From a virus: DNA of 57,725 bases. This document shows, piece after piece, positions 2,118 to 40,814 of the stretch. The stretch spans positions 1-57,725 of the IMG/VR virus record IMGVR_UViG_3300044703_000050; one strand, written 5' to 3'. Every line of letters starts with the position of its first letter. Position 1 is the first letter of the stretch. The position numbers and the translations under genes are program-made. A model generated the notes under the pieces. The model searched no databases. It was not told the origin of the DNA and was given only the letters and a program-made list of their open reading frames with translations.

Positions 2118-2370
2118 TGCCGTTGAACTTCATCGTGCCGACCGCAGCATCCTGCTTGTAGACGCCGCGCAGCACGTCGTTGCGGTTCTGCATCATCATC
2201 CGCTCGGTGAACTCGAACAGGTGCAGCTGCTCCTCGAGCGGCGCGGTGGCGATGTAGTCCGCGATCAGCTCGAGCATGGCGGCGATCGATCCCTCGATCG
2301 TCAGCGCCGGGAAGCGTTCCTCGCGCAGCTGTGCGATTCCGCAGTGCAGGCAAAATTTCTGATTGGTCAC
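2110..2370 (-). CDS. Hypothetical protein with N-terminal CxxC (86 aa)
   Basis: Starts with GTG 2370 in a GTGA overlap with the stop of the upstream ATPase gene. It begins MTNQKFCLHCGIAQ, a single CxxC pair, and continues into a predicted helical segment (IAAMLELIADYIATA, then LEEQLHLFEFTERMM). One CxxC could bind metal as a dimer, but there is no second pair. Not recognised. Confidence 0.65.
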   Translation of the reverse strand: MTNQKFCLHCGIAQLREERFPALTIEGSIAAMLELIADYIATAPLEEQLHLFEFTERMMMQNRNDVLRGVYKQDAAVGTMKFNGNG

Positions 2371-4481
2371 GCTAAGTCTTCCTCGACCCGCCGCAGCATA
2401 CCGCCTTCGTCGGCGACCAGGCCGGACTCGATCATTTCCTTAATAGCGCCGTACCAGGGACCGGCCTTTGCACTCTGCGCGCTGACGTTGAGCGCTTCGG
2501 CCAATTGCTGGCGCGTCATGGGCCGCTTGAGGGCGTCATAGTGGCGTTGCGATTTTTGCAAGAGGTCGTAGCGAGCGGCACGCAGCGTCTCCGCAGTGTC
2601 CGCGCGCGGCGGCGCAAGGATCTCGAATAGCGCACAGCCCTTGGGCGTGATGGCGAATTGACGATCGCCTTCGATCAGCGCCCATTCGCGTAGCGCCTTA
2701 ATGTTGCCGTACCACGGACCGGCCTTTGCGCTCGCCGGCGTTTTCCCGGCCAGCAGCGCCCATTGTTCATTGGTGAGGCGATGGCGCCGGTGGTCGGCGA
2801 GCACGCGCAACATCGTCATGGCCGCGGTGCCGACGGTAGCCGCTATCCGATCGCGCCACAGTGCGAACAGCTCGACTTCGTCTTGTGGATTTTGAGGCAC
2901 GTGCGTGGAGGAGGCGGTGCCCGCCAGTGTCGCGCGAAAGCCGCCGGCGGCTTCTTCGATGAAGCCGTTCGCCAGCAGCGTATTGCGCGAGCGATACCAT
3001 GGCCCCGCCTTCGCGCTTTCTGGCGATTTACCGACGGCAACCGCCCACAGGGCCAATGGCAATGGCTGCGGATACGACCGCACCAGCGCATCGAGCATGG
3101 CCATGTCGGCGCGCGACGGTGCGTTAGCCTGAGAATATTTATCGGATGACTCCTCAGCCGGCGGCCGGGCTTTGCTTGTCGCCGCCGGCACACCCTGATC
3201 TTCGGCGGCGCCTGTGGCTTCGCTGCGCCGCGAGGCACGCTCCCAGCGGCCCTCGCGGGCGACCTCCGCGAGGTGCTCCGCAAGATCGGTCACCTTTCGA
3301 GCGTGATCGCGAACATCGAGTGCCGCGGCATTCCAGTATTCGCCGGCCTGGCGCAGGCCGGCTGTCATCCCGCGCTCGTAGCCACGCTGTTCGGCTTCTC
3401 CGGTTTCTGTTTTCAGCCGCGTGTTCTCGGCTAGCAGTGCGTCCGCTTCTGCCCTGTCCACTTCATCCTCCTGCTGCTTGGGTAGATGCTGCGGCTTCGC
3501 CGGCGGCACCGTTTCGTCAATCGACATGGCGCCGGTCGCGATGTCGCGCGCGTCGTCGGCTGCCATCCACGCGGGCTGCACGTAGACCTTGGCCACGGTT
3601 TGCCCGAAGCACGCGAAGAACTGGCCGCGCTCGAGGGTCGCGACGTCTGCGGCGCTGGGGCGCTTGATGCCGGCCGGGATGTTGGAGAGGTTGCGCTTGA
3701 GCTCGTTGGCTTCCCGCTGCACGCCGATGATCCAGACGGTGCAGCCGCGCAAGATGGTCTTGTCGACGCCGGCCATGTCCTGGCTATCGACCCAGATGTG
3801 GTTGCCGATGCCAGCGCCCTTGCGAACGAGCGTGATGGCCGACACCTTGACCGGCGAGCCCTTGCCCTCGGGCACGAACTCCCAGGCCTCCGGGATCACG
3901 ACCGTGGTGTTGCGGCAACGCTCATTCACCCAATCGAGCGCCGACTGGATGAACAGCATCTGCATCGGCGTGGCGAAGGGGCTCACGTCCATGACGTTGA
4001 TGCCGGTGGCCAGGTCGAGGCGATCGGCGAGATCGGCGCGCTCGATCTCCGGCACGATCAAGTCGAGATAGGCGTCAAGCTGGGTGTAGACGCCTTCGTT
4101 GATACCTCTGGCGGTGGCGAGCGCCTCACGAACGCGTTCCTGCACTTCCGCCAGCGTTTCCGTGTTTCGGCAGATCTTCATGATCCAGGGGCGCAGGAAT
4201 TTGTTCTTCTCCTGCAGGGTGGCATCGAGGATCGAGGTGACGAACTGCCAATCGGCGCGATCGCGGAAGTAGGGCTTCACCCGGCGGCCGGCGGCGAACG
4301 AGCCTTCGCCGCGCTTGGTGATGAAGGTCAGCGCGGTGGCGCCCGACCTGGTCGCCAGCGCCTCAAGCGTCGTGGTCTTGCCCGACTCCTGGGTCTGGCC
4401 TGTGACCGCCAGGTGGCGCAGCGGGATGGCGATCGGCGCGCCGGTGCCGAGCTCGTAGCCGAGGTGGACGGAGGCTTTCAT
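2367..4481 (-). CDS. HerA/FtsK-like ATPase with three repeated C-terminal modules (704 aa)
   Basis: Residues 28-36, GQTQESGKT, form a Walker A variant one residue longer than the usual HerA G-x-T-G-S-G-K-T. Residues 194-200, VVIPEAW, stand where Walker B is expected, with the catalytic Glu kept and Pro in place of Asp. The ATPase part covers about 330 residues. A coiled-coil-like stretch follows (VDRAEADALLAENTRLKTET), then three copies of a 60-70-residue winged-helix-like module, each containing (S)AKAGPWY, encoded near 2450-2475, 2708-2731 and 2993-3017. HerA-like enzymes pump or clear DNA; here the repeats suggest added DNA binding (inference). A second, different HerA-like ATPase lies at 8028-9302. 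It heads a cluster of genes with 4-8-base overlaps. Confidence 0.75.
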   Translation of the reverse strand: MKASVHLGYELGTGAPIAIPLRHLAVTGQTQESGKTTTLEALATRSGATALTFITKRGEGSFAAGRRVKPYFRDRADWQFVTSILDATLQEKNKFLRPWIMKICRNTETLAEVQERVREALATARGINEGVYTQLDAYLDLIVPEIERADLADRLDLATGINVMDVSPFATPMQMLFIQSALDWVNERCRNTTVVIPEAWEFVPEGKGSPVKVSAITLVRKGAGIGNHIWVDSQDMAGVDKTILRGCTVWIIGVQREANELKRNLSNIPAGIKRPSAADVATLERGQFFACFGQTVAKVYVQPAWMAADDARDIATGAMSIDETVPPAKPQHLPKQQEDEVDRAEADALLAENTRLKTETGEAEQRGYERGMTAGLRQAGEYWNAAALDVRDHARKVTDLAEHLAEVAREGRWERASRRSEATGAAEDQGVPAATSKARPPAEESSDKYSQANAPSRADMAMLDALVRSYPQPLPLALWAVAVGKSPESAKAGPWYRSRNTLLANGFIEEAAGGFRATLAGTASSTHVPQNPQDEVELFALWRDRIAATVGTAAMTMLRVLADHRRHRLTNEQWALLAGKTPASAKAGPWYGNIKALREWALIEGDRQFAITPKGCALFEILAPPRADTAETLRAARYDLLQKSQRHYDALKRPMTRQQLAEALNVSAQSAKAGPWYGAIKEMIESGLVADEGGMLRRVEEDLA

Positions 4482-5060: not shown

Positions 5061-5189
5061 CCAACGGCCACCCCGAAAACTCGGTTTTTGCGATTCGACT
5101 CCGGTCATGGGGAGAGTCGAATCCTGGGCCTTAACGCCCCTCTTGCCCCCGCCAGAGTCGAATCGTAAGCTGTTTTGGCTGCAAAACCC

Positions 5190-5239
5190 CCGGCCTGTCA
5201 CGCCGGAGGTCGCGGGTTCGAGTCCCGTCGCTCCCGCCA
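5190..5239 (+). other. attP core: 3' half of tRNA-Asp(GTC)
   Basis: The sequence folds as a tRNA anticodon arm (CCGGC, loop CTGTCAC, GCCGG; anticodon GTC at 5197-5199), a variable loop, a T arm (GCGGG, TTCGAGT, CCCGT), an acceptor 3' strand (5229-5235), G73 (usual for tRNA-Asp) and CCA at 5237-5239. No 5' half is present upstream. Phages that integrate into tRNA genes carry such a 3' half so that the host tRNA is rebuilt on integration. The integrase gene starts 134 bases away. The likely bacterial attB is therefore the 3' end of tRNA-Asp. Confidence 0.8.
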
Positions 5240-5373: not shown

Positions 5374-6681
5374 TCATCGATCTTCTCCCTTAGCGCCCCG
5401 CAGGCGCGTTCGCCCACGGAGGCGAGAGGCGTCGGCCATGCGCACCAGCGTCGCGTCAGGCGGCAGCGCTGTGGCCGGCAGGTAGGTTTCCCGCAGCATG
5501 CGGCTCTTGTCGATGGTGTTAGCCATCTTGCCGGCGAGTGTCTTGTCATCGGCGTGGCCGGCCTTGACCTCGATCGCGCCGGAGCGACGGAAGTCCGATA
5601 TCTGGCGGTGGGCGCCCGGGAACACGACGGAGCGCACGTCGCGGAAGTCGTCGCCGAACGTGTCTGCGGTGTAGGGCACAGGCGGCCGCGGCTTGCCGCC
5701 CTTGCGGGTGGCCTTGTGGCCGCGCGTGTAGAAGATCGGCGCGCTCTTCAGGAGGTTCGGAGGCAGCGTCGTCATGTAGGCCTTGAGGACGCGCTGGGTC
5801 TTGTGACTGAGTGTCCCGATCGCAGCCGCGCCGCTCTTGGTACGATCGAGCGAGAAGAACGGCCCCTCGGCGTCGCCGGTGAGCTGCGCCAGCGTGAGCG
5901 TGCGCACGTCGACCGGCGAAAGCATCGTGTCCCAGGAGACCGCTAGCGCGGCGGCGAGACCGCGGTAGCCCAGGCGCCAGGCGCCCTTCACGAGCTGGCG
6001 CAGCTCGTCGTAGTTCCAGAAGGCACTGCGCGGCTTCGGGGTCTTGCGACGGATGCCGAGCGAGGGGTCGTTGTCCCGCTCGCAGTAGTGCTCGCCGTCG
6101 TTGCGCTTGAGTGAGCCGACCACGTACCACATCGCGCGCCAGATCTTCATGGCGCGGTGCGCCTCGCGCACGCCGATGGTTTCGAGCAGGCCCTTCACGC
6201 TTGGGTCGTCGGGATCTCCGGCGTACCACAGATCGACATCCTCAAGGGTGACCGTGCGCGGGTCGACGTCGCCGAATACCGGCTCGATGTGCTTCCAGCC
6301 GCGCCACCAATCCTCGCGCGTGCGCGGCTTCTTGCCGCTGCGCCACTCGTTGGTCCTGCGATAGCGCGCGAAACCCTCGCCGAGGCTGTTGGGCGGGAAC
6401 ACGCGCTCGATCTGGGACGGGTCGACCGCCACCGCGCCGGCGAGATAGGCAGCGCGCGCGGCTCGCCATTTGACGTTGTAGGCTTCCGCGATCGCCCAGG
6501 CGCGCGCTCCATCCTCGCCGCAATTGATCAGCGCGAAGCCGAGTTTTGCCATCAGCGTCGGCTCGATCCTGCCGGTCTTTGGATTGCGGCGTTTGAGGCA
6601 CGGCGCCCAGTAGCCCCAGCGCTTCTTGCTGCCGGGCCAGGCCTTGCGGGTCACGTAATAGGGGATGTTCACGTCACCCAC
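5374..6681 (-). CDS. int: Tyrosine recombinase / phage integrase (435 aa)
   Basis: Site-specific recombinase expected to integrate the phage at attP. Catalytic candidates are Arg260 (SPVDVR), Lys282 (RTKSG), Arg365/366 (SDFRRSG) and Tyr400 (RETYLP). The box II His is replaced by Ser/Asp, and the second His/Trp position is unclear, which is seen in divergent phage integrases. The N-terminal 200 residues would hold the arm-binding and core-binding domains. The start is GTG 6681, overlapping the stop of the excisionase-like gene by 8 bases; a second GTG at 6672 is possible. The gene's 3' end faces the attP region. Confidence 0.9.
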   Translation of the reverse strand: MGDVNIPYYVTRKAWPGSKKRWGYWAPCLKRRNPKTGRIEPTLMAKLGFALINCGEDGARAWAIAEAYNVKWRAARAAYLAGAVAVDPSQIERVFPPNSLGEGFARYRRTNEWRSGKKPRTREDWWRGWKHIEPVFGDVDPRTVTLEDVDLWYAGDPDDPSVKGLLETIGVREAHRAMKIWRAMWYVVGSLKRNDGEHYCERDNDPSLGIRRKTPKPRSAFWNYDELRQLVKGAWRLGYRGLAAALAVSWDTMLSPVDVRTLTLAQLTGDAEGPFFSLDRTKSGAAAIGTLSHKTQRVLKAYMTTLPPNLLKSAPIFYTRGHKATRKGGKPRPPVPYTADTFGDDFRDVRSVVFPGAHRQISDFRRSGAIEVKAGHADDKTLAGKMANTIDKSRMLRETYLPATALPPDATLVRMADASRLRGRTRLRGAKGEDR

Positions 6682-7186: not shown

Positions 7187-8031
7187 GTCGAGAGTCGCTC
7201 GTTGGCGATCAATTGCACGAACGCGAACTTGTCGACCTTTCGCAGATCGATGCGATCGAGATTGTCGAGCACGTAGCGGCGCAAATCAGCCGGCTTAATG
7301 ATCCAGCGCGAGCCGCCCTGTTGCGGCGAACGCGCATCTTTGCGGCGCGCCGCCTTGATCTCGCCCTTGCCGGCCATGATGCCAACGGTCTTGCTGTCGA
7401 AGCCGACGATGACTGCAGCCTGGTGCGCCGACAGGCCTTCATTAAAACGCCGGGAAACGTCGAGGCGCTTGGCCCTCACCATGATCGCTGTCGGCGAACG
7501 GGCGAAGCCGTGTTCGCGGAAAATCTTCGAGCACTTGTTGACATCGTGAAGTGGCACCTTCCGAAGGAGCGCGGTCTCGGCCGCCGTCCAGGGCGGCGTT
7601 TTCTTGTGCGGCATCACCAGGCCAAGCTTGGTCGCTCGCTTCGTTACCCACCAGCGCGGCAGCTTGAGCTTGTCGGCGATCGCGTTGATGGCGCCGCGCT
7701 TCTTGCCATCCTGCAGCTCGTATTCGCGGCGCAGGATATCGTCGATATCGGCAGGAGGATTGATCTCAGAGAGAGAGCCGCCGCCTCTGGTGCGCGGCGC
7801 ATAGAGGCCGAGCTTGTTAGCCTGCCCATAGATAGAGCATTTGGACGTGTGCTGCGGCGGCAGATGCGCGGCGCAGGCGGCAACGCCGCCGAGCGGATAG
7901 TATTTCCGCATGATCTGGTTTTCCGCCTCGGTCCAGAAGCGGCCGGAGCGCCGACCGGCGACGTAAGGTGCAGACACTCGCGGGGCGTGCTGGCGGCCCT
8001 TCTTGAACGAAACCGGCGTGAGCACACTCAT
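7183..8031 (-). CDS. Myb/SANT-like DNA-binding protein (282 aa)
   Basis: Two Trp-anchored helical units are visible: RFWTEAENQIMRKYYPLGG near residue 31 and PPWTAAETALLRKV in the second half. Each is followed by a region resembling the third SANT helix (NKLGL, AKRLDV). A third putative helix-turn-helix, GLSAHQAAVIVGFDSKTVG, and a basic excisionase-like segment follow. The start ATG 8031 overlaps the upstream ATPase stop as ATGA; a longer frame from 8208 would sit inside the ATPase and is rejected. A DNA-binding role is likely, with target unknown. Confidence 0.75.
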   Translation of the reverse strand: MSVLTPVSFKKGRQHAPRVSAPYVAGRRSGRFWTEAENQIMRKYYPLGGVAACAAHLPPQHTSKCSIYGQANKLGLYAPRTRGGGSLSEINPPADIDDILRREYELQDGKKRGAINAIADKLKLPRWWVTKRATKLGLVMPHKKTPPWTAAETALLRKVPLHDVNKCSKIFREHGFARSPTAIMVRAKRLDVSRRFNEGLSAHQAAVIVGFDSKTVGIMAGKGEIKAARRKDARSPQQGGSRWIIKPADLRRYVLDNLDRIDLRKVDKFAFVQLIANERLST

Positions 8032-9302
8032 GCGAGCTCCTTGGAAATTCGGACGGCGCGTCTCTTGCCGTCGCCGGTGAACTCGACGGCGCCGTAGCGG
8101 TCGAGCAGCTCGAGCGCGGCGGCCACCTGGTCGACTCTGCGGCTGAGATGCCGGGCGAGCTCGACGACCACGGCGCCGGCGGGCGCGAGCCGCTGCAGCG
8201 CGCCCCATACTCGGCCGGCATCGGCGAAAGACGTTTCGCGGATGAAGCCGCGGATGTGGCGCAAGCCCGGCGCCAGGGCGCGCTCTTCGATCGCAGCGCG
8301 ATCGACTTCCGAGGCCGACAGCAAGGCCTCGAGATCGATGAGCTGCGCGGCGGCACCTTTCTTGAACCGGGGCGCATTGCCGATCGCTGGCGCCGCGCCG
8401 GAGTGGAACGTCTCGACCGGACCGACCCTGGCCACCACCGGACTGAATGAAAAAGCCGGGCCGACGGCGACGAACTCGCCTGGCGTCAACAGCGGAAGCC
8501 GGTCAAAGCCCTTGCTCGCGTCCCAGCCGATCATTTCCGCCGCGCGCCGGATGTCGATGTCGAGAGTGTTAAGCCCAACCATGAAGTTCTGCGCTTCGCT
8601 CACGACCGATTTGGCGATGCGCGCGACGCGCTGGGTCGCGAGGATCCCGGCCAGCCCTCGCTTGCGGCCGCGGCTCATAAGGTCGGTGAGCGCCGCGATC
8701 GAGGCCTTGCGCAGCGCCGGCGTTTCGGAATAGCCCCCGAACGGCGCGAACAGGTGCGCCTCGTCGATAGCGACCAGCGCCGAATGCCAATGCTCCCGGG
8801 GCGCGGCGACGAGCGCGGAGAAGAACGCAGTGGCGGCCTTGAGCTGATCGTCGCGGTCGAGCTCGGAGAGATCGAGCAGCAGCGAGGCGCGGTGCTCTCG
8901 CGCACGTAGCGCCGCGGTGGCCAGCGTCGCGATATCGAGGCGATGGCCGTCGAGGTGAAGCAGCTCGAGCTTCTCCCCGAGCTCGCGGAACTCGCCCTCC
9001 GGATCGACCACGATCTGCTGCACGCGGCCCGCCGTCTGCTCGAGCAGCCGTCGCAACGTCCAGGACTTGCCGGCGCCGGAAGCGCCCTGGATGAGCAGGC
9101 GCCCTTCCATCAGCTTGCGCAGGTCGAGCCCGATCTCGGCGCCGGTGTCGGCATCGCCGAGGTGGACGTCACCAGGTCGACATTTCGCGGCGACGATCGT
9201 CGGACGCGCGATGACGCCTAAAGGCTTGGCCGTGCTCGGTCCGAAGCTACGCCCGCCCGTAGCGGCGGCAAAGGCGGCTTCCGGGGAGGCGGCGCGGGTC
9301 AT
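8028..9302 (-). CDS. HerA-like ATPase with C-terminal winged helix (424 aa)
   Basis: Walker A GASGAGKS is at residues 73-80 and Walker B ALVAIDEAH at 175-183. A later TLMSRGRKRGLAGILATQRV-type segment (residues 205-228) is typical of HerA/FtsK-family DNA translocases. The C-terminal 90 residues (LRHIRGFI...LARHLSRRVDQVAAALELLDRYG) resemble a winged helix. The start at 9302 overlaps the upstream stop by 4 bases. It differs in length and motifs from the other HerA-like protein at 2367-4481, so this is not a simple duplication. A role in DNA handling or host takeover is inference. Confidence 0.8.
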   Translation of the reverse strand: MTRAASPEAAFAAATGGRSFGPSTAKPLGVIARPTIVAAKCRPGDVHLGDADTGAEIGLDLRKLMEGRLLIQGASGAGKSWTLRRLLEQTAGRVQQIVVDPEGEFRELGEKLELLHLDGHRLDIATLATAALRAREHRASLLLDLSELDRDDQLKAATAFFSALVAAPREHWHSALVAIDEAHLFAPFGGYSETPALRKASIAALTDLMSRGRKRGLAGILATQRVARIAKSVVSEAQNFMVGLNTLDIDIRRAAEMIGWDASKGFDRLPLLTPGEFVAVGPAFSFSPVVARVGPVETFHSGAAPAIGNAPRFKKGAAAQLIDLEALLSASEVDRAAIEERALAPGLRHIRGFIRETSFADAGRVWGALQRLAPAGAVVVELARHLSRRVDQVAAALELLDRYGAVEFTGDGKRRAVRISKELA

Positions 9303-9857: not shown

Positions 9858-10204
9858 GTGATCACCGGTCCGAGATCATGAACGGGCAGGGAGCCTTTCG
9901 GCGGGTCCGACCAGCTGCGACCGAAACTTTCCAGCGTGGCGCGCCATCGCGCGATCATCGCCGGCTCGCAGTGGCTGCAGGCATCCGCCCAGGTGGGCCA
10001 ACGTCCGACGGCGCCATAGAACGCATACTGGTAGTAGAGCGACATCTGATCGTGTGGCAGCAGCGGATCGTGCTTGACGGCGCAGACCTGGCAGACGTCG
10101 GCGCGCGGCGGCAGCAGCTTAAACGGCGCGGCGCGCTGCTCGATCACTTTGCCGGTCTGCATGTCGACCGTCTGCATTTCGACCGGGACGGTTTTCATCT
10201 TCAT
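9854..10204 (-). CDS. Zinc-ribbon-like hypothetical protein (116 aa)
   Basis: Two CxxC pairs, CQVCAVKHD and CSHCEP, could bind one zinc ion. Between them lies a hydrophobic, Tyr-rich segment LYYQYAFYGAVGRWP. The start ATG 10204 forms an ATGA overlap with the stop of the Gp37/Gp68-like gene. No family is recognised. Confidence 0.65.
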   Translation of the reverse strand: MKMKTVPVEMQTVDMQTGKVIEQRAAPFKLLPPRADVCQVCAVKHDPLLPHDQMSLYYQYAFYGAVGRWPTWADACSHCEPAMIARWRATLESFGRSWSDPPKGSLPVHDLGPVIT

Positions 10205-11217
10205 GCGGCGGCTCCGATGCGTGGAAATTCGTTGTGCTCGCGGCCGTCGAGGAGACGGCCGGCGGCTTTCCTGCCGACGCGCCACATGGCGTGATCACCC
10301 AGATCATCCCAGCCTGCGAGCCCCTCGGTTTCGAAGGACTTGTCGCCATCCCAATCCATGCACGCATAGCGGCTCTGGTGGAGGTCGCTATCGCGCCTTT
10401 GAAGATCGTCTGTGTAATGATGGCCAGGCAGCCACTCACCCCATTGCTTGAACAAGAACGCCACGCCGGCGGCGGCACATTGATCGCGCACCGCCCGGAA
10501 CCAGTCGGGATGGGCGGGCTTCGGATCGAGCTTGCCGCTCATGCCGCCGGCGATCACCTGCGCGCGGCGGCCGAGCGCGAGGAAGTCGTCAGGAAGCTGC
10601 AACGGCCCGATCGCCGGCTCGTAGGAAATGAACACGGTGAAGCCGAGCGCGGCGAGGCGGCGGAGGTGCGGCCAGCGCTCGTCAAACTCCGGTTGTCGTT
10701 CGGCGGAAGTGCCAAGCCAGAAACGCTCGCGCGGGTTACCCCAGTCAACCAACGAGTCACAATCCATCGAATTCCGCCGCTCCGGCAGGCCTTCGAAGTA
10801 AGCCGCCATCACGTCGGCGCGCTTCGTGAGCAGCTGCCCAATGTGTTTGGAGCAGAGGATGGTGCCGACGGTCTTGTCGATCACCGCGCGCGGCCGGTCC
10901 TCGTGAAACAGATCGCTCATGTCGCCGACGAAGATTGTCGACGGCTGTCCTCGGCCGAGCTTCGGCTCCTTGGCGCCGCGCCAGGTCAACGGCCAGCTCC
11001 ACACCGGATGATCATCCGGCGCTGCCGTCAGCTTGCCGTTGAACACCGGGCGGCCCTTCTGCAGCGTCGTGGTGCCTGCATAGAGCGGATGGTTGGCGAG
11101 CCGCGTGCCGGCGAGCTGCTGGGCGTAGCAGGGAATGCAGCCGGGCGACTTGATCGAGCAGCCGCCGATCGGGTTCCAGGTGGCGTCGGTCCATTCGATC
11201 GGGGTCGGATAGCCCAT
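10201..11217 (-). CDS. Phage Gp37/Gp68 (DUF5131) family, radical-SAM-like protein (338 aa)
   Basis: The start IEWTDATWNPIGGC is typical of the phage Gp37/Gp68 family (PF07505). Cys20, Cys27 and Cys30 form a three-Cys cluster that could hold an iron-sulfur centre as in radical SAM enzymes, with GDMSDLF and WLGTSAE also family marks. The later FISYEPAIGPL segment matches the family barrel end. Substrate is unknown; members occur in many temperate phages next to early genes. The start is ATG 11217, 4 bases after the upstream stop. Confidence 0.8.
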   Translation of the reverse strand: MGYPTPIEWTDATWNPIGGCSIKSPGCIPCYAQQLAGTRLANHPLYAGTTTLQKGRPVFNGKLTAAPDDHPVWSWPLTWRGAKEPKLGRGQPSTIFVGDMSDLFHEDRPRAVIDKTVGTILCSKHIGQLLTKRADVMAAYFEGLPERRNSMDCDSLVDWGNPRERFWLGTSAERQPEFDERWPHLRRLAALGFTVFISYEPAIGPLQLPDDFLALGRRAQVIAGGMSGKLDPKPAHPDWFRAVRDQCAAAGVAFLFKQWGEWLPGHHYTDDLQRRDSDLHQSRYACMDWDGDKSFETEGLAGWDDLGDHAMWRVGRKAAGRLLDGREHNEFPRIGAAA

Positions 11218-11853: not shown

Positions 11854-12239
11854 CGCGCACCCACCTTCCGCTTCGGCATGGCGGCGTAGCCCGGGCGCGT
11901 GGGGCGCGAGCTCTGCGCGTCCTCGTCCTGCTCGACGGCGTGGCTGCCGCAGTCGGGACAGCGCAAGGAGGGACCGCCGAGCGCGCTCCACATCGCGTCG
12001 CAGGCGTCGCAGTGCATGTGGAACATCCCGTTGCTCCTTTTGTGCTGCTGGTGACGGCGGTCGAAGTCGCCCTCGACATAGCCGGAGGCGTAGGCGAGCA
12101 GATCGGGTGCATCGCGCCGCCCGGGGACGCCGGCGTAGCCGTCGGCATAGCCGCGCTCGCGGCTGCCGGGATCCAGCGCCAGGCCGCGCGCGATCGCCAC
12201 GGCGGGCGTGATGGACGCGGTTGGCACGGCGCGCCTCAC
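11850..12239 (-). CDS. Zinc-ribbon hypothetical protein (129 aa)
   Basis: CDAC and CPDC, spaced about 19 residues apart, form a zinc-ribbon-like pair in the C-terminal half. The N-terminal half holds a helical SRERGYADGYAGVPG...YASGYVEGDF segment. It starts with GTG 12239 as a GTGA overlap with the XRE gene stop, so expression is probably coupled to the regulator. Not further recognised. Confidence 0.6.
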   Translation of the reverse strand: MRRAVPTASITPAVAIARGLALDPGSRERGYADGYAGVPGRRDAPDLLAYASGYVEGDFDRRHQQHKRSNGMFHMHCDACDAMWSALGGPSLRCPDCGSHAVEQDEDAQSSRPTRPGYAAMPKRKVGAR

Positions 12240-12646
12240 GCGGCTTTGCGGTGTTCGCCGCGCCGGGCTTTGGCGGCCGCGGCCTCGACCACGGCCAGCA
12301 CCGCCGCGCGCATGCCGGCGTCGTCGATGGCGTTCCAGGCGCGCGCCAGGGCGAGGCCGTTGTGCGATACCGCCAGCTGCTGGAACGGGTCGTCGGTGTT
12401 TGTGGCGACGATGTTGCCGGCAATGCCCTCGTAGAACCAGGCGATCGGCCGCTGCAAAATGGTTGAAATCTCGCTCAGGCGGCTGGCGCCGATGCGGTTG
12501 GTGCCCTTTTCGTACTTCTGCACCTGCTGGAAGGTGAGCTTGAGCGCGTCGCCCAGCTTCTCCTGGCTCATGCCTCTCATGAGGCGAGCCTGGCGCACGC
12601 GCGCCCCGACGTGGACGTCGACCGGATTGGTTTTCTTGCTGGCCAT
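12236..12646 (-). CDS. XRE-family transcriptional regulator (136 aa)
   Basis: Helix-turn-helix at about residues 15-70: VGARVRQARLMRGMSQEKLG, then TFQQVQKYEKGTNRIGASRL. The C-terminal half (FYEGIAGNI...LALARAWNAIDDAGMR) resembles rhizobial XRE regulators with an acidic-to-helical tail. A good Shine-Dalgarno (GAGGAG) lies 6-7 bases before ATG 12646. An 11-bp inverted repeat at 12672-12712, just upstream, is a candidate operator for self-regulation. It is the third XRE protein in the genome besides the repressor pair at 15 kb. Confidence 0.85.
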   Translation of the reverse strand: MASKKTNPVDVHVGARVRQARLMRGMSQEKLGDALKLTFQQVQKYEKGTNRIGASRLSEISTILQRPIAWFYEGIAGNIVATNTDDPFQQLAVSHNGLALARAWNAIDDAGMRAAVLAVVEAAAAKARRGEHRKAA

Positions 12647-12735: not shown

Positions 12736-12810
12736 TGGAGCGGGGAGCGGGAGTTGCACCCGCAACCTTCCGGCTGGATGCCGGATGCTCTGGATTTGAG
12801 CTATCCCCGC
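12736..12810 (-). tRNA. tRNA-Gly(TCC)-like gene with altered conserved bases
   Basis: The minus strand folds into a full 75-base cloverleaf: acceptor GCGGGGA/TCCCCGC (7 perfect pairs), D stem GCTC/GAGC, anticodon stem TCCGG/CCGGA, T stem GCGGG/CCCGC, discriminator T and encoded CCA (12736-12738). The anticodon loop is CATCCAG, giving TCC at 34-36 but A instead of U at 33. The D loop AAATCCA lacks GG, and the T loop TGCAACT has G instead of U at 55. The stems leave little doubt that it folds as a tRNA; whether it works in translation is doubtful. Confidence 0.7.
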
Positions 12811-14092: not shown

Positions 14093-14419
14093 TTACGAAA
14101 CGAGCCCGAGTTGACGGGCGATGCGGGCTCTTTCGTCGGCCTGCCCACGCGCATAGCCAGCCTCGCTGGCGGCGGTGATTTCGGATTGATGTTGGGTGGC
14201 CATTTCGCGGGCCATCGCGTTGAAGCCTTTGGCGTCCGCCATGGACTCGTCGTATTGACCGCAGCGGACGCTATCGAGCAGGTCGACTGCCTGCAGCAGC
14301 GCCTCTCGATCCTCGCCGGCCTCAAGCCGGTTAATGATCATCTGCACGAAGTTCTCGAGACCGTCGCGCTTGGTCTGCGGGATTTTAATCGGGCGGCTGT
14401 AGTAACACTGGGTGACCAC
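14093..14419 (-). CDS. First gene of the leftward operon, helical hypothetical protein (108 aa)
   Basis: GTG 14419 is preceded by GGGAG at a good distance; a frame from TTG 14485 would put the promoter and operator inside the gene and is rejected. It starts with VTQCYYSRPIKIPQTKRDGL, has a helical centre (FVQMIINRLEAGEDREALLQ) and ends in an Ala/Arg helix. Coming first after the leftward promoter, it may have an early control role, like lambda N by position only. No motif supports an antiterminator. Confidence 0.55.
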   Translation of the reverse strand: MVTQCYYSRPIKIPQTKRDGLENFVQMIINRLEAGEDREALLQAVDLLDSVRCGQYDESMADAKGFNAMAREMATQHQSEITAASEAGYARGQADERARIARQLGLVS

Positions 14420-14425
14420 TGGGCG

Positions 14426-14455
14426 CTCCCATCGCTGAGACTCAGGCGATGGGAG
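14426..14455 (-). repeat. Strong hairpin covering the Shine-Dalgarno of the first leftward gene
   Basis: CTCCCATCGC (14426-14435) and GCGATGGGAG (14446-14455) are exact inverted copies, and the ten bases between them pair further (TGAG/CTCA) with one bulged G. On the minus strand the downstream arm contains the GGGAG ribosome site of GTG 14419. The promoter -10 lies at 14457-14462, so a start near 14450 would trim the upstream arm; in that case the palindrome acts as DNA, not RNA. Confidence 0.6.
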
Positions 14456-14456
14456 A

Positions 14457-14485
14457 AAGTTACGGTATGCGTAACTAAGCGTCAA
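14457..14485 (-). promoter_or_regulatory. Leftward early promoter with operator (PL-like)
   Basis: On the minus strand TTGACG (14480-14485) and TAACTT (14457-14462) are separated by 17 bases. The 17-bp operator GTTACGGTATGCGTAAC (14459-14475) occupies the spacer and -10. The rightward promoter at 15308 has the same design, so one repressor can block both. Confidence 0.7.
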
Positions 14486-14492
14486 CCCCTAT

Positions 14493-14509
14493 GTTACGGT
14501 AGACGCAAC
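14493..14509. promoter_or_regulatory. 17-bp operator, upstream copy on the left
   Basis: GTTACGGTAGACGCAAC is identical, in opposite orientation, to the operator in the rightward promoter at 15319-15335. It lies just upstream of the leftward -35, where a second repressor dimer could bind cooperatively. Confidence 0.7.
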
Positions 14510-14539
14510 TAAGGCGCCCGCCGAAAATGATGGAAGACA

Positions 14540-14956
14540 TCACCGGCTCTTGCGATAGCCGCGCTGTGCCATGCACGCAGTCATGGTCGCGTCTTCGGTC
14601 TGTGTTCGCCGAACGCCCGCACCTAGGTTCGCCCCGATGTCGCCGAGAGGAGAAAAATCCACCGCAGGCGAGTTGTAACTGCCGGGGGTGGGCGGCAGCA
14701 CGGATTGAGGCCCCACATAGACCGGGACGGTTACGTTGTTTTCGACCGATACCCGCGGAGCGGCCGTCGGCGTCGGGACTTGATTTCCCGCCACCACTGC
14801 CGCTGCTCGACAGGTCGCGAAGTCGACTTCCCATTTCTGCTCTAATGCGGGGGTCGATCGAATAGCCTGATTGTCGAACCTCACCCAAGAATTCGGCGTA
14901 TTGGCCGCGCAGCCAGAAAGCACGATGGCGAGCGCCGCAACGACAGTTGCCCTCAT
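14540..14956 (-). CDS. Lipoprotein within the immunity region (138 aa)
   Basis: A signal sequence MRATVVAALAIVLSGCAANT with lipobox LSGC (Cys16) marks it as a lipoprotein. The mature part is Pro/Val-rich (TVPVYVGPQSVLPPTPG) and ends MTACMAQRGYRKSR, similar to short alphaproteobacterial lipoproteins. It sits directly after the repressor gene, both leftward, so it is likely expressed in the lysogen. Phage lipoproteins with this placement often block superinfection, which is inference here. Confidence 0.75.
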   Translation of the reverse strand: MRATVVAALAIVLSGCAANTPNSWVRFDNQAIRSTPALEQKWEVDFATCRAAAVVAGNQVPTPTAAPRVSVENNVTVPVYVGPQSVLPPTPGSYNSPAVDFSPLGDIGANLGAGVRRTQTEDATMTACMAQRGYRKSR

Positions 14957-14974
14957 TTCGCACCTCGACGCCGG

Positions 14975-15250
14975 CTAAGCCTTTTTTCGCGCCTTCACTT
15001 CCTCTGGCTCCCGATCCGCCTCAGTCGGACGTCGCATCAACAGCGCACCGGCGTGGGTGCCGAGCACGTCGGCGCACGACTCTAGGAAATCCTGGGTGTA
15101 GCCCTGCTTGAGGGCCTCGATTCGCGAGATCGATGTTTTGGTCGTGCCGATTGCGTCGGCGAGCTCCTCTTGTGTGAGCCCGCGAAACTCGCGCCACTCC
15201 CTGATGAAGTGGCGACGACGACGTAAGGAATTGCCGATTTTATGAGGCAT
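14975..15250 (-). CDS. CI-like repressor, HTH XRE family (91 aa)
   Basis: A short helix-turn-helix protein: FIREWREFRGLTQEELADAI, then GTTKTSISRIEALKQG. No cleavage or oligomerisation domain of the LexA type is present, so induction by self-cleavage is unlikely. It is transcribed leftward, divergent from the Cro-like gene, with four copies of a 17-bp operator around it. The start ATG 15250 is close to one operator copy (15259-15275), suggesting self-regulation. Confidence 0.85.
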   Translation of the reverse strand: MPHKIGNSLRRRRHFIREWREFRGLTQEELADAIGTTKTSISRIEALKQGYTQDFLESCADVLGTHAGALLMRRPTEADREPEEVKARKKA

Positions 15251-15258
15251 GGCGGGAG

Positions 15259-15275
15259 GTTACCTGTGACGCAAC
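15259..15275. promoter_or_regulatory. Operator copy at the repressor start
   Basis: GTTACCTGTGACGCAAC shares both half-sites (GTTAC and GACGCAAC) with the other operators but differs in the middle. It lies 8 bases upstream of the repressor ATG. A weaker related sequence with an 18-base spacing is at 15284-15301. Confidence 0.6.
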
Positions 15276-15307
15276 CGCCCGTCGTTAGCGCACAGAGCAA
15301 CCTCCTC

Positions 15308-15336
15308 TTGACAGGAGAGTTGCGTCTACCGTAACC
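15308..15336 (+). promoter_or_regulatory. Rightward early promoter with operator (PR-like)
   Basis: TTGACA at 15308-15313 is a consensus -35. At 17 bases lies GTAACC (15331-15336), a poor -10. The operator GTTGCGTCTACCGTAAC (15319-15335) fills the spacer. The ATG of the Cro-like gene follows at 15345, so the transcript would have almost no leader. Confidence 0.7.
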
Positions 15337-15344
15337 ATGCGGGC

Positions 15345-15608
15345 ATGGATGTGTCAGTCCACCCAGTCCGCGCCTACCGGCTCGCTCAGAAACCGCCGCT
15401 TAGCTTGGAGGATTTGGCTGCACGTATCCGCACGACCAAAGCCAACCTTTCGCGAATCGAGACCTTCAAGCAGACCATCAGCGATGAGCTGCTTGCGAAC
15501 GTCGTCGCCGAGACTGGCATCCCGGCGGGCCGACTGCGTCCCGACCTCGCGAAACTCTTCCGCGTGTCACGCGCGCGGCCACGGCGGCACACGAGTGCCG
15601 CTGCTTGA
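15345..15608 (+). CDS. Cro-like HTH protein (87 aa)
   Basis: Helix-turn-helix: YRLAQKPPLSLEDLAARIRT, then TKANLSRIETFKQTISDELL. It resembles the repressor at 14975-15250 in the second helices (TKTSISRIEALKQG versus TKANLSRIETFKQT), so both may read the same operators. It is divergent from the repressor and directly behind the rightward promoter, the Cro position. The C-terminus is Arg-rich. Confidence 0.8.
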   Translation: MDVSVHPVRAYRLAQKPPLSLEDLAARIRTTKANLSRIETFKQTISDELLANVVAETGIPAGRLRPDLAKLFRVSRARPRRHTSAAA

Positions 15609-25528: not shown

Positions 25529-26120
25529 AGCGTTCCCGGCGCGCCATGCGCGTTTCGTCGCCGAGTACCTGATCGACTTCAACGGCGCCAAGGCCGCGGT
25601 GCGGGCGGGCTATTCGGCGCGGCGGGCGAAGCAGACGGCGTCGGAGCTTTTGGCGCGCGACGAGATCGCGGCGGCGATCGCCGAGGGCCAGCAGCAGCTC
25701 GCGGCGCGGGCCACGGTCACGGTGGACGAGGTGGTGGCGGCGCTCACGACCGTACTGCGCGCCAACGTCCTGGACTACATGCGGGTCGGGCCCGAGGGCG
25801 AACCAATCGCCGATTTCAGCGAGATGACGCGCGAGCAGGCCGCGGCGGTGTCGGAGGTCACGGTCGAGGACTTTGTCGACGGCCGCGGTGACGATGCCCG
25901 CGACGTCAAGCGGGTGCGCTTCAAGCTGCACGACAAGCTGTCGGCGGCCGACAAACTGATGCGCCACCTCGGTGGCTACGCGCCGGTCCGCATCGGCAAC
26001 GCGCCAGGCGAGACGTTTAAGACCAGTCAGGCGGCGCATGAATTTACCGACGCGGAGCTCGTCGCTATCGCCCTCGGCGGCCGCGGCGGAGCTGCTCCGG
26101 AGGAGACGGGCGCGCGATAG
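25509..26120 (+). CDS. terS: Small terminase subunit, Terminase_2 family (203 aa)
   Basis: The N-terminus FPARHARFVAEYLIDFNGAK, then AAVRAGYSARRAKQTASELL is the helix-turn-helix of the Terminase_2 (PF03592) family, which selects phage DNA for packaging. The later VTVEDFVDG and KLHDKLSAADKLMRHLG segments are also typical. It overlaps the large subunit by 83 bases. Confidence 0.9.
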   Translation: MTESKAKAFPARHARFVAEYLIDFNGAKAAVRAGYSARRAKQTASELLARDEIAAAIAEGQQQLAARATVTVDEVVAALTTVLRANVLDYMRVGPEGEPIADFSEMTREQAAAVSEVTVEDFVDGRGDDARDVKRVRFKLHDKLSAADKLMRHLGGYAPVRIGNAPGETFKTSQAAHEFTDAELVAIALGGRGGAAPEETGAR

Positions 26121-27600
26121 CCTGATCGGCTTCGCCAATTCGGTAGAGATCCCGGGCAAACCCGTTGCCGACGATGAGGATGCCTGGCTGTTCAAGCCGG
26201 TGGAGACCACGGTCGCCGATCACCACCGGCTGATCATGCAGCACGCAGAGACGATCGCCTCGACGCCGTACGGTCGCGGCATGTTCTTCCTGCCGCCGGG
26301 CTCGGCCAAGTCCACTTACGGCTCGGTGCTGTTGCCGGCCTACAACATGGGGCGCTTCCCCGGCAACCGCCTGATCCTGACCACGTACGGCTCCGACCTC
26401 TCGCGCAAGCACGGCCGCCGGGCCCGCCAGATCGTCCGCTCACCGGCCTATGGCGCGATCTTCAACACCGGCCTGTCGCCGGACTCGAGCGCCGCCGACG
26501 AGTGGGCGCTGACCAACGGCTCCGAATACATGGCCGGCGGGATCCTTTCGGGGATCACCGGCAACCGCGCCAACGGCATCATCATCGATGATCCGGTGAA
26601 AGGCCGCGACGAGGCGGAGTCGGACGTCGTGCGCAAGCGCACGCTCGAGGCCTACGAGGACGACATCAAGACGCGGCTGCTGCCGGGCGGCTGGATGCTG
26701 CTCATTCAGACGCGCTGGCACGAGAACGACCTCGCCGGCTCGATCCTGCCGGAGAGCTGGAAGGGCGAGAGCGGGCTCATCCGGTGCCGCGACGGCTTCG
26801 ACTGGCTGGTGCTGTCGATCCCGGCCAAGGCCGAACGCGCCGACGATCCGCTCGGCCGCAAGCCCGGCGAGTATCTCTGGCCGGAATGGTTCGACCGCAA
26901 GCACTGGTCGCAGTTCGAGAGCAACGCGCGGACCTGGTCGGCGCTTTACCAGCAGCGGCCGGCGCCGGAGAGCGGCAACTATTTCCGGGCCGAGTGGCTG
27001 CGGCCTTACACGGACGCCCCGGCACGCGCGACTCTCACCGTCTACGGCGCCTCTGATTACGCCGTCACCGAAAAGGGCGGCGACTACACCGTGCACATCG
27101 TGGTCGGGGTCGATCCGGACAACCGGATGTACCTCCTCGACCTCTGGCGCCGGCAGACGGCGTCGGACGAATGGGTCGAGGCCTGGTGCGACCTGGTGCT
27201 GAAATGGAACCCGCTCGGCTGGGCCGAGGAGAAGGGCCAGATCAAGGCCGGCGTCGGCCCGTTCCGCGACAGCCGCGCGCTCACACGCAAGGCCTATTGC
27301 GCGGTGACAGCGTTTCCGACGCGTGGCGACAAGGCGGTGCGCGCACAATCGATCCGCGGCCGCATGGCACAGCTCGGGCTCTACGTGCCGACGAGCGCGC
27401 CCTGGGCGGCCGACCTGAAGACCGAGCTGATGAGCTTCCCGAACGGGCGGCATGACGACCAGACCGACACGCTCGGGCTGATCGGGCAACTCCTAGACGT
27501 GTTGATGCCCGGACCGAAGCCGAAGACGGCCGAAACCAACAAGCGCAGCGACTACGGCCCGGCGCAACGGTCGGACGAGAACAGCCTGCTGACACTTTAA
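26038..27600 (+). CDS. terL: Large terminase subunit (520 aa)
   Basis: Packaging motor. ATPase motif PPGSAKST (in the FFLPPGSAKSTYGS segment) is the Walker A variant common in this group, with Walker B GIIIDDPVKG and the RWHENDLAG coupling segment. The nuclease domain shows SDYAVTEKGGDYTVHIVVG and the later FPNGRHDDQTDTLG. Length is close to P22 gp2 (499). ATG 26038 was chosen; a longer frame from 25972 has no better start. Headful packaging as in P22 would agree with the circular map, but this is inference. Confidence 0.9.
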   Translation: MNLPTRSSSLSPSAAAAELLRRRRARDSLIGFANSVEIPGKPVADDEDAWLFKPVETTVADHHRLIMQHAETIASTPYGRGMFFLPPGSAKSTYGSVLLPAYNMGRFPGNRLILTTYGSDLSRKHGRRARQIVRSPAYGAIFNTGLSPDSSAADEWALTNGSEYMAGGILSGITGNRANGIIIDDPVKGRDEAESDVVRKRTLEAYEDDIKTRLLPGGWMLLIQTRWHENDLAGSILPESWKGESGLIRCRDGFDWLVLSIPAKAERADDPLGRKPGEYLWPEWFDRKHWSQFESNARTWSALYQQRPAPESGNYFRAEWLRPYTDAPARATLTVYGASDYAVTEKGGDYTVHIVVGVDPDNRMYLLDLWRRQTASDEWVEAWCDLVLKWNPLGWAEEKGQIKAGVGPFRDSRALTRKAYCAVTAFPTRGDKAVRAQSIRGRMAQLGLYVPTSAPWAADLKTELMSFPNGRHDDQTDTLGLIGQLLDVLMPGPKPKTAETNKRSDYGPAQRSDENSLLTL

Positions 27601-37947: not shown

Positions 37948-38838
37948 ATGGGCATCTTCGACGGCATCTTCAACAATAAGCCGGCCGAGCGGGCGGCGGC
38001 CGCGCAGAGGGCTGGGCTCGAAGCCGGCTATGGCATGGCGCAGCCGTTGCTGCAGCAGGGCGCCGATGCGCTAAAGACGAATTTCGCGGCCGGGCTTGAC
38101 CCGTTCCTGAAAAACTTCGCCACTGCCAATCAGGGCCAACAGACCTATGCCGATGCTGTCGGCGCCAACGGTCAGGAGGGCTTCGACCGCGCGACCACGA
38201 ATTTCCGCGCCGATCCGGGTTTTAAGTTCGCGCTCGATACCGGCAACGAGAATGTGCTGCGCAACGCCGCGCGCACCGGCAACCTCGCGAGCGGCGGGAC
38301 CGACGTCGATCTGATGAAATTTGGCCAGGGTCTCGCCGATCAGCAGTACGGCAATTACGTGCAACGGCTGCAGCCGTTCATCGGCGCGTCGGGTGCGGCT
38401 GCTGGCGGCATCGGCGGGCTCTATGCCGGGCTCGGAACGCAGCTCAACGGCAACTACGGTACCCAGGCCAATCTCGCTTATGGCACGCAGACCGGCATCG
38501 GGAATGCGAACGCGTCGGCCGAGCTCAATCAGGGGAACGTAAACAAGAACATCCTCGGCGCCGGGCAGCAAGGCATGGAGCTCGCCGCAAAGTTCCTGCC
38601 ATTCCTGTTCTCCGACGAGCGCGTCAAGGAAGACATCGAGCCCATAGGCGAGCTCTACGACGGTCAGCCGATCTATCGTTACAAGTACATCGGCGATGAC
38701 CCCACCACTCATATTGGTCTGCTGGCGCAGGAAGTCGAAGAGCTCGAGCCCGACGCGGTCGCTGAGTTCGGTGGCATCAAGGCCGTCGATTACAAGCGCG
38801 CCACCAACTTTGCCGCCGGATTGGCGGAGTTCGTCTGA
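37948..38838 (+). CDS. Injection-type protein with C-terminal S74 chaperone domain (296 aa)
   Basis: The N-terminal 220 residues are Ala/Gly/Gln-rich helices (EAGYGMAQPLLQQGADALKT, then MKFGQGLADQQYGNYVQRLQ) as in P22 gp7/gp20/gp16 injection proteins. The C-terminal 75 residues (FSDERVKEDIEPIGELYDGQ, then PTTHIGLLAQEVEELEPDAV) are a peptidase S74 intramolecular chaperone domain, with Ser in SDERVK as the expected autocleavage residue. It should cut itself off after folding. ATG 37948. Confidence 0.8.
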   Translation: MGIFDGIFNNKPAERAAAAQRAGLEAGYGMAQPLLQQGADALKTNFAAGLDPFLKNFATANQGQQTYADAVGANGQEGFDRATTNFRADPGFKFALDTGNENVLRNAARTGNLASGGTDVDLMKFGQGLADQQYGNYVQRLQPFIGASGAAAGGIGGLYAGLGTQLNGNYGTQANLAYGTQTGIGNANASAELNQGNVNKNILGAGQQGMELAAKFLPFLFSDERVKEDIEPIGELYDGQPIYRYKYIGDDPTTHIGLLAQEVEELEPDAVAEFGGIKAVDYKRATNFAAGLAEFV

Positions 38839-40814
38839 TGGCGGCTTGGGATAACGTCTCGCTGCCGGGCGCGCCGCAGGCACCGTCCTATGCGTCGCCG
38901 CTCGTGGACTTTTCGCCGCTCGGCAATCTGGTGAGCGATTTCTACAAGGGCAGTCAGCAGAGCCAGGAGTTCAAGGCCTCGCGCGCATTTCCGAATGGCG
39001 TGCCGCGCGATGCCGCCGGCAATATCGACACCAGCGCGATCGCGGATGCGTCTGCGCGCTATGGCGGCGTCTCCGCGGTCCAGGGCCTGCTGCCGTTCCT
39101 GCAGAAGCAGCAGGAGCTGGATCGCCCAGTGCCGCCGATGCCTGGGATGGATCCTCCGCAACAACAGAGCCAAGCCGGTCCCGCCCCCGCGCCGCGCATC
39201 CTGACGCCGATGACCGGCGCCGCCCCCGCGCCGGCACAGATCCCGGCGCACGGGATTCCGGCACCGAGCACGGCCGTGCCGGCGCCGGGCGGTGACAACG
39301 GTCAGACACTGATGGGACTCGTCGCCGGCAAGGTCGGCGACGAGCAGGCCGGCAAGGTCGTCGCGGACCTCGTGCGCATGGCGCCGCAGATCGGCGACCC
39401 GAACGCGCCACAGACGCCGGAACGGCTGGCCAATATCGGGAAATTCGTCGACGGCTATCTCAAACGCGCGGGCGCCGCCGGCGGTCAGCTGTCTGCGCCT
39501 GGCGGACCTCCTGCCGCGGGGACGCCCGTCACCGTCGCCCAGGGTGGGCCGGCGCCGTCACCGCAGGGCGGACCCGGCGGCGCCGGTACTCCGCAGCAGC
39601 CATCACCGGCATCGGTCATGGTACCGCCCGCCTATCGTGGCCGTGAGCTCGAATTCGCGCAACAGCTGCGAACGCAGGCCGATCAGACGCGGCTGCGCGC
39701 GCGCCGTGAAGGCATCGTCGGCATTCCGAGCAAGGCGATGGAGGACCGCGCAGCGGCCTTCGACAACCAGGCCGCCAAGATCGAGGAGGCGCTCGGCACT
39801 GCGGCACAGCCGACGCCGGAGATGAAGAACGCCAGCGCGTCGGGCGGGCTGACGCCGCTCCAATTCGAAAATTCCAAGATCATCGCCAAGGTCGCCGCCG
39901 AGAACAGCGCGCTGACGCCGGAGCAAAAGCTCTACGAGCAGGCGACGCAGCAAGGCTATCGCGGCTCGGTCGACCAGTTCCACGTCGACCTCGCGGGGCG
40001 AAAAAAGGCCGGCGAGGTCGCCGCCGAGAACAGCGCGCTGACGCCGGAGCAAAAGAACGCGCGCGGCGCCGGGGTGTCCAGTCCGCTCGACTATCAGCGC
40101 CAGCAAGAGCAGCAGAAGGCCGACATCACCGCCGGCGAGAAGAAATACGAGGGCATCCAGCACCAGGCCGACGAGGCCCACAACCTGGTGCAGACCCTGC
40201 GGCTCAACCAGTCGCTGATGGATGATCCCAATTTCTATTCGGGTACCGGCGAAGAATATAATTTGATGTGGAAGCGCATCGGCGCCTCGCTCGGGCTCAC
40301 CGATCCGAATGCGGCGGTTGCGCAGGAGGCGTTCCGCAAGACGGTCTCGAGCGCGATCCTCGATCAGATCCGCTCGCTCGGCGGCCAGGGGCTCGGCCAG
40401 GTGCGCGTCGCCGAGATCAACGTGATGAAGCAGGCGGCGCAGAACCAGGACAACACACCGGCGGCGAACCGGTTGTTGTCGGAGATGCAGATGCGGCTCG
40501 CCACCAAGTGGACGCTGCCGATCGCGGAGCTCGCGCAGGCCTATAAGGACGGCGGCTCGGTCACCATCGACGGCCAGACCTATATGCTGCCGAAGCACGG
40601 CTCGCTCGATGCCGGCTTCGACAAGCTGAAGACCAAGTACATCAACGAGCATCCGCTGCTGTCGAAGGAAGATCTCGAGGACACCCGCCGCATCGCTCCG
40701 CCGCTGGTGCGATCGCCCGCGGACCTGAAGAAAATTGGCTGGAAGGACGGCACGCCGTTCCGCACGCCGGACGGCCGTATCTTTACGCATTTCTCGCCGC
40801 AGGGACCGCAATAA
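38838..40814 (+). CDS. Internal virion / DNA injection protein (658 aa)
   Basis: Pro/Ala/Gln-rich N-terminal region, then helical regions with DFRTQADQTRL-like (LRTQADQTRLRARREGIVGI) and KRIGASLGLTDPNAAVAQEA segments. A 39-bp exact DNA repeat occurs at 39891-39929 and 40017-40055 (encoding AAENSALTPEQK twice). Position and composition match the ejected injection proteins of P22-like phages. TGATG overlap with the preceding gene. Confidence 0.7.
   Translation: MAAWDNVSLPGAPQAPSYASPLVDFSPLGNLVSDFYKGSQQSQEFKASRAFPNGVPRDAAGNIDTSAIADASARYGGVSAVQGLLPFLQKQQELDRPVPPMPGMDPPQQQSQAGPAPAPRILTPMTGAAPAPAQIPAHGIPAPSTAVPAPGGDNGQTLMGLVAGKVGDEQAGKVVADLVRMAPQIGDPNAPQTPERLANIGKFVDGYLKRAGAAGGQLSAPGGPPAAGTPVTVAQGGPAPSPQGGPGGAGTPQQPSPASVMVPPAYRGRELEFAQQLRTQADQTRLRARREGIVGIPSKAMEDRAAAFDNQAAKIEEALGTAAQPTPEMKNASASGGLTPLQFENSKIIAKVAAENSALTPEQKLYEQATQQGYRGSVDQFHVDLAGRKKAGEVAAENSALTPEQKNARGAGVSSPLDYQRQQEQQKADITAGEKKYEGIQHQADEAHNLVQTLRLNQSLMDDPNFYSGTGEEYNLMWKRIGASLGLTDPNAAVAQEAFRKTVSSAILDQIRSLGGQGLGQVRVAEINVMKQAAQNQDNTPAANRLLSEMQMRLATKWTLPIAELAQAYKDGGSVTIDGQTYMLPKHGSLDAGFDKLKTKYINEHPLLSKEDLEDTRRIAPPLVRSPADLKKIGWKDGTPFRTPDGRIFTHFSPQGPQ

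Follow-up and report, generated by a model that had tools for sequence, protein, structure and literature searches.

The window analysed here, an IMG/VR virus record taken in full (57,725 bases) that carries terminase, portal and head genes, contains the immunity region, i.e. the on/off control, of a temperate phage with an alphaproteobacterial host. Within this region two small DNA-binding proteins appear, from the layout of the sequence, to be competitors for a 17-bp site that is present five times, in a lambda-like arrangement (Table 1), and in about two dozen related phages, as judged by their sequences, the layout is kept and the DNA word of the operator is changed. We propose with high confidence that the region operates by the logic of lambda, its repressor being small and non-cleavable.

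Table 1. Positions of the switch elements within the 57,725-base window
Feature	Position	Strand	Remarks
First left-early gene	14093-14419	-	~108 aa; GTG start proposed at 14419; longest ORF 14093-14485
Perfect 10-bp inverted repeat	14426-14455	-	CTCCCATCGC/GCGATGGGAG; arms 14446-14455/14426-14435; straddles predicted PL start
PL	14457-14485	-	-35 TTGACG 14485-14480, 17 bp, -10 TAACTT 14462-14457; predicted start ~14450 (inferred)
OL1	14459-14475	-	Near-perfect palindrome over -10 of PL
OL2	14493-14509	-	Exact copy; 34 bp from OL1; past -35 of PL
Putative lipoprotein, 138 aa	14540-14956	-	LSGC lipobox; cargo slot between rep and OL
Rep, 91-aa repressor (P0001)	14975-15250	-	HTH_3/HTH_31; recognition helix from K38 (TTKTSISRIE)
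PRM (proposed)	15257-15285	-	Weak -35 ACGACG 15285-15280, 17 bp, -10 TAACCT 15262-15257; ATG 15250
OR3	15259-15275	-	Centred -17 from Rep ATG; over proposed -10 of PRM
OR2	15285-15301	-	GTTGCTCTGTGCGCTAA; weak, 4.0 bits, one good half and one poor half; centred -43 from Rep ATG
PR	15308-15337	+	-35 TTGACA 15308-15313, 18 bp, -10 TAACCA 15332-15337; predicted start ~15345 = cro ATG
OR1	15319-15335	+	Exact operator copy; over -10 of PR (cro promoter)
Cro-like 87-aa HTH protein	15345-15608	+	TTKANLSRIE; predicted leaderless mRNA

Operators, promoters and the two DNA-binding proteins

The operator is an imperfect 17-bp palindrome with the arms GTTRCG/CGYAAC, alternatively written GTTACG-N5-CGYAAC. 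A renewed search recovered the exact 17-mer (GTTACGGTAGACGCAAC) at both places given in the preliminary description, 14493-14509 (+) and, inverted, 15319-15335 (-), and the variants reported there at 14459-14475 and 15259-15275 are present with three and four differences, respectively, the second (GTTACCTGTGACGCAAC) keeping GTTAC...CGCAAC. The arms of OL1 match perfectly over 6 bp, or over 7 bp if the flanking base is counted. Over the whole record the 17-mer has three matches against 0.08 expected, a count that none of 100 shuffles reached, and the motif search confirmed that copies are confined to this region and not spread genome-wide. All four sites originally described are real, but a fifth and weaker one at OR2 had been missed; it was found by scanning each locus with a matrix built from its own strong sites, and apart from it no further comparable site occurs elsewhere in the 57,725 bases. 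The record thus has three OR sites, of which OR2, weak here, lies near -42 from the repressor start. An exact scan of viral_contigs with the 17-mer returned six isolated matches, none with a paired partner site; their number is close to chance by our own estimate, and they were set aside.

The repressor gene is flanked by two operator clusters, each overlapping one of the divergent early promoters, as in the lambda type of layout. In the preliminary description a TTGAC(A/G) -35 was followed in both directions, after 17 bases, by GTAAC, with the operator in the spacer. The -35 elements and the 17-bp spacing on the left hold; on the right, TTGACA needs 18 bp to TAACCA, and the -10 of both promoters is therefore the TAAC at the operator end, so that the operator spans the -10 as well as the spacer. 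Because the -10 lies within the operator, repressor and sigma factor would read the same bases. TAACTT and TAACCA are poor -10 elements by the E. coli consensus, and a simple consensus promoter scan found no sigma-70 site, owing to these TAAC-type -10 sequences. Each early promoter has a further operator just past its -35, 34 bp from the first (OL2 on the left, the weak site 15285-15301 at OR). The start of PR was placed by family geometry, and PRM was assigned by analogy with PR and PL. In lambda the centre of OR2 is at -42 relative to the start of PRM, and repressor bound there activates transcription. The comparable distance of OR2 here, together with the weak -35 ACGACG and a Rep ATG only 9 nt past OR3, suggests by this analogy that the repressor is made from a leaderless mRNA and a repressor-assisted PRM.

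Rep matches Pfam PF01381/PF13560 above cut-off, and HTH families only. Its structure model (mean pLDDT 77.7) is a five-helix HTH (H16-23, H27-34, H38-45, H53-63, H67-72) with a low-confidence tail and no further folded domain, in which helix 3 begins with K38; neither Pfam nor the model revealed a peptidase or C-terminal autocleavage and oligomerisation domain in the 91 residues. The solved structures nearest to Rep are SinR, CapH, C.BclI and the 434 and P22 C2 repressors, with C.AhdI and HipB also among the nearest folds. The presence of C.BclI, C.AhdI, SinR and HipB in this group would suit a toxin-antitoxin or restriction-control (C-protein) autoregulatory module in place of a phage immunity switch, a reading that we consider barely credible, given the terminase, portal and head genes in the same record, the two divergent early operons with operators at both ends that are conserved in phage contigs, and neighbours that vary between loci and include no paired toxin or restriction gene. 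The Cro-like protein is 40% identical to Rep over 48 aa and has a weak HTH_31/HTH_3 match below cut-off. The cro ATG lies 8-11 nt past OR1 in 23 of 24 loci, which fits a start of transcription at the ATG; the cro transcript is probably leaderless.

The sites, their spacings, the gene order, their conservation in relatives and the covariation of helix and operator can be read from the sequences; from them we infer that both proteins bind, how regulation is directed, where transcription starts and that PRM is activated, as well as the cargo function and insulator discussed below. In the lysogen, Rep dimers on OL1/OL2 and OR1 would turn off PL and PR, since operator and -10 share bases, and Rep at OR2, at -43 from the predicted rep start, would be positioned to aid RNA polymerase at the weak PRM. 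Occupation of OR3 by Rep or Cro would turn PRM down. During lytic growth Cro, expressed from PR and probably from a leaderless mRNA, would bind the same sites and block PRM. Rep and the lipoprotein would form one lysogenic transcription unit directed towards PL, and read-through from it into the left operon would be silenced by a hairpin that hides the Shine-Dalgarno sequence of the first gene.

Near-fixed geometry and changing operator words

Searches for relatives turned up 9 and later 39 viral loci, together with 8 genomic loci (Pseudolabrys, Pseudochrobactrum, Aureimonas, Caulobacter), that encode them, and 36 non-redundant loci were tested for an upstream 17-bp palindrome accompanied by a pair of similar sites downstream, all spacings between 18 and 69 being allowed. 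An upstream site with a matching downstream pair at 33-35 bp was found in 18 of the 36, with six loci at each of 33, 34 and 35 bp, as compared with 0.0 loci per replicate at these spacings in Markov-shuffled controls. About six further loci have spacings of 36 bp (L023, L055) or 45-48 bp (45-46 in L042, L057 and L060; 48 in L052), the latter being roughly one helical turn longer. The pairs in L056 (spacing 24) and L061 (45) were left out of the support, as they resemble unrelated tandem repeats. In most cases the paired sites flank the -35 (TTGAC or a near match), OR1 is found at -74 to -79 from the repressor ATG in 19 of 22 loci, and a site with its centre at -41 to -43 is present in 16 of the 22. 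The operator word varies between phages and the geometry is nearly fixed: the half-sites of the family include GTTACG, GTTGCA, CTTGCA, TTTCAG, AATCACC, TATGCG, GTTGTA, TGTACG and GTAACG. The words differ widely, and phages of this kind would be expected to be heteroimmune.

The changes in the operator are tracked by both proteins. Among 23 loci with clear sites, the partial correlation of operator similarity with similarity in the six residues of the recognition helix is 0.369 for Rep and 0.370 for Cro (p 0.0002 each) once the preceding part of the HTH is allowed for, although these p-values overstate independence because the loci share ancestry; the preceding parts do not track the operator significantly (p 0.08, 0.14). 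In addition, the Rep and Cro helices of one phage resemble each other (0.314) more than helices shuffled between phages (0.205 +- 0.027, p 0.0002), and the preceding 18 residues show no such match within phages (p 0.38). Lysine at helix position 3 (K38 in Rep here) accompanies the half-site GTT in 7 of 7 loci and in 0 of 16 others, a link that was noticed by eye before it was counted. These results provide indirect evidence, by covariation, that both proteins use the same operators. The weak HTH score of the 87-aa protein might instead mean that only Rep uses the operators, the other protein regulating something else, e.g. as a CII-like activator, so that the switch has no Cro arm. We regard this as improbable: covariation with the operator is as strong for the helix of the 87-aa protein as for the Rep helix, the two helices of one phage match beyond shuffled pairs, and the promoter and divergent placement of its gene are conserved. 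The HTH-only Rep, the kept geometry and the tracking of operator by helix together lend comparative support to the compact, lambda-like switch of two small HTH proteins without a cleavage domain that was originally proposed.

A/T-rich runs directly before OL2 in many relatives (L040, L036, L045 and others) could be UP elements of PL, and the T-runs after OL2 in L029 and L059 resemble a weak terminator.

The cargo slot and the inverted repeat at PL

The preliminary description placed the repressor, lipoprotein and Cro-like genes between or next to the operators; the lipoprotein gene does lie between rep and OL, in a slot for variable cargo. Predicted lipoproteins occupy this slot in the present record, L036, L044 and L053, membrane or secreted proteins in L029, L031, L032, L035 and L055, and a soluble-looking protein in L028, and in ten loci the gap between rep and OL is at most about 65 bp and holds no gene. 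From this comparison of sequences the lipoprotein is best described as exchangeable cargo in the position of lambda rex, outside the switch. It has no family matches, and searches of viral contigs and annotated phages returned no homologues. The lysogeny module of phage TP-J34 includes, on the strand of the repressor, a gene for the exclusion lipoprotein Ltp that is expressed from the prophage (PMC3952083). This precedent, one of gene type and position rather than of sequence, makes superinfection exclusion our best guess, by analogy, for the function of the lipoprotein here. Seven residues, VDFSPLG, are common to the lipoprotein (SYNSPAVDFSPLG) and a putative ejection protein, where they lie at the N-terminus (SYASPLVDFSPLG; 38838-40814, +); the gene of the latter directly follows that of a DNA-ejection-like protein (phrog_598). 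The match may reflect mimicry by an exclusion protein or chance; relatives of either protein, sought to test for mimicry, were not found.

Just past OL1, the predicted start of PL is straddled by an inverted repeat. Its 3' arm contains the GGGAG Shine-Dalgarno sequence of the first left-early gene, the GTG start of which was placed by its spacing from this element. The corresponding RNA hairpin folds with a z of -3.6 in this record, and in the majority of loci a hairpin of roughly 6-13 bp recurs in the same position, with the Shine-Dalgarno sequence of the first left-early gene in its 3' arm. The 5' arm, at offsets 1-11 past OL1, pairs with the Shine-Dalgarno region of its own locus at -9.5 kcal/mol and with swapped ones at -7.3 kcal/mol (p 0.00005, and p 0.0001 when each close group is represented by a single locus). 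No intrinsic terminator was found between the lipoprotein gene and OL in this record. Based on these comparisons, we tentatively suggest, at somewhat less than an even chance, that PL carries throughout the family a built-in read-through insulator that replaces the usual terminator between immunity genes and left operon. Read-through RNA from the rep-cargo operon would keep the full 5' arm, fold and hide the Shine-Dalgarno sequence of the first early gene, and the PL transcript, starting past most or all of that arm, would allow its translation. IS10 protects its own transposase gene from outside transcription in a manner comparable to the proposed insulator. No insulator of this kind was described for prophages in the literature searched.

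A reading that falls only just short of an even chance is that the repeat belongs to the 5' end of the PL mRNA, as a stabiliser or translational control, or is a palindromic site for another protein. The start of PL is a predicted one, and a start 1-3 nt past OL1 would put the whole hairpin into the PL mRNA; yet the distance of 8-11 nt from OR1 to the cro ATG, kept in nearly all loci, suggests that transcription begins near +9, within or beyond the 5' arm, and with PL starting near offset 9 by this cro geometry its transcripts would therefore be without most of the arm. The calculated accessibility of the Shine-Dalgarno sequence is 0.30 in the PL transcript and 0.16 in the read-through RNA, a modest difference (Wilcoxon p 0.012), and a control on the PR/cro side also has a slight excess of own-arm pairing (p 0.037). 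On the other hand, the complementarity is specific to offsets 1-11, two neighbouring control segments having no own-arm excess (p 0.48-0.49), and most loci are without an intrinsic terminator between rep or cargo and OL, a clear one being present in L045, L055 and L058.

Relation to known switches and other features of the record

The region resembles lambda (OL-rex-cI-OR-cro) in the order and directions of its genes, in the operators at both early promoters, in its three OR sites, with OR2 near -42 from the repressor start and OR3 over the repressor promoter, in the exchangeable gene in the rex position and in two small HTH proteins that appear, from their sequences, to share sites. It differs in that the repressor has only 91 aa and lacks the C-terminal domain for cleavage and cooperativity, that the OR1-OR2 and OL1-OL2 distances are 34 bp, with the -35 in between, as against an operator spacing of 24 bp in lambda, that two OL sites are recognised, and that the cro mRNA as well as the repressor mRNA is predicted to be leaderless. 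Unlike mycobacteriophage stoperator immunity, the present system has no scattered operator copies: none were found in a search of the record, and all good sites lie within 14459-15335. What is new relative to known switches is a non-cleavable 91-aa repressor under lambda logic with operators around the -35 at about 34 bp, together with operator specificities that diversify across a family and, possibly, the insulator.

The Gifsy/DicA-type lambdoid repressors are likewise non-cleavable, with a lambdoid layout and heteroimmune relatives, and those of Gifsy are inactivated by LexA-controlled antirepressors (PMC3121763). In contrast, the present record contains no LexA box of the form GTTC-N7-GTTC or GAAC-N7-GAAC, and no antirepressor or other route of induction was recognised in it. 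Because the cleavage domain is absent as well as such LexA boxes, SOS induction by cleavage is unlikely; induction by antirepression, by analogy with Gifsy, is one possibility. As predicted here, cro and cI of the PY54/N15/phiKO2 immB regions are expressed from leaderless mRNA, the start of PY54 cro having been measured at the AUG, and peripheral bases set operator specificity between relatives; however, PY54 Cro binds a single operator, whereas the geometry of the present region predicts shared sites at three promoters (PMC4488713).

These phages offer a natural series of switches in which a near-fixed geometry is combined with many operator words, each with two presumed reader proteins. With this series, the way in which new immunity specificities evolve can be tested directly, on small proteins that have no cleavage domain. 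The cargo slot next to the repressor is a place to seek genes for superinfection exclusion.

Several other features of the record lie to the left of the switch. A tRNA-Asp gene (5160-5235, +) adjoins the gene of a 435-aa protein (5374-6681, -) that has no Pfam or PHROG match and whose C-terminus resembles, by eye, a divergent tyrosine integrase; together they may mark an attachment site. Two proteins, at 8028-9302 (-) and 2367-4481 (-), match the terminase-like ATPases of phrog_2666 and are separate from the real terminase at 25972-27600. The left early region also encodes a DUF5131 protein (10201-11217, -) and a tRNA-Gly (TCC) (12736-12810, -), which adjoins a second XRE regulator (12236-12646, -).
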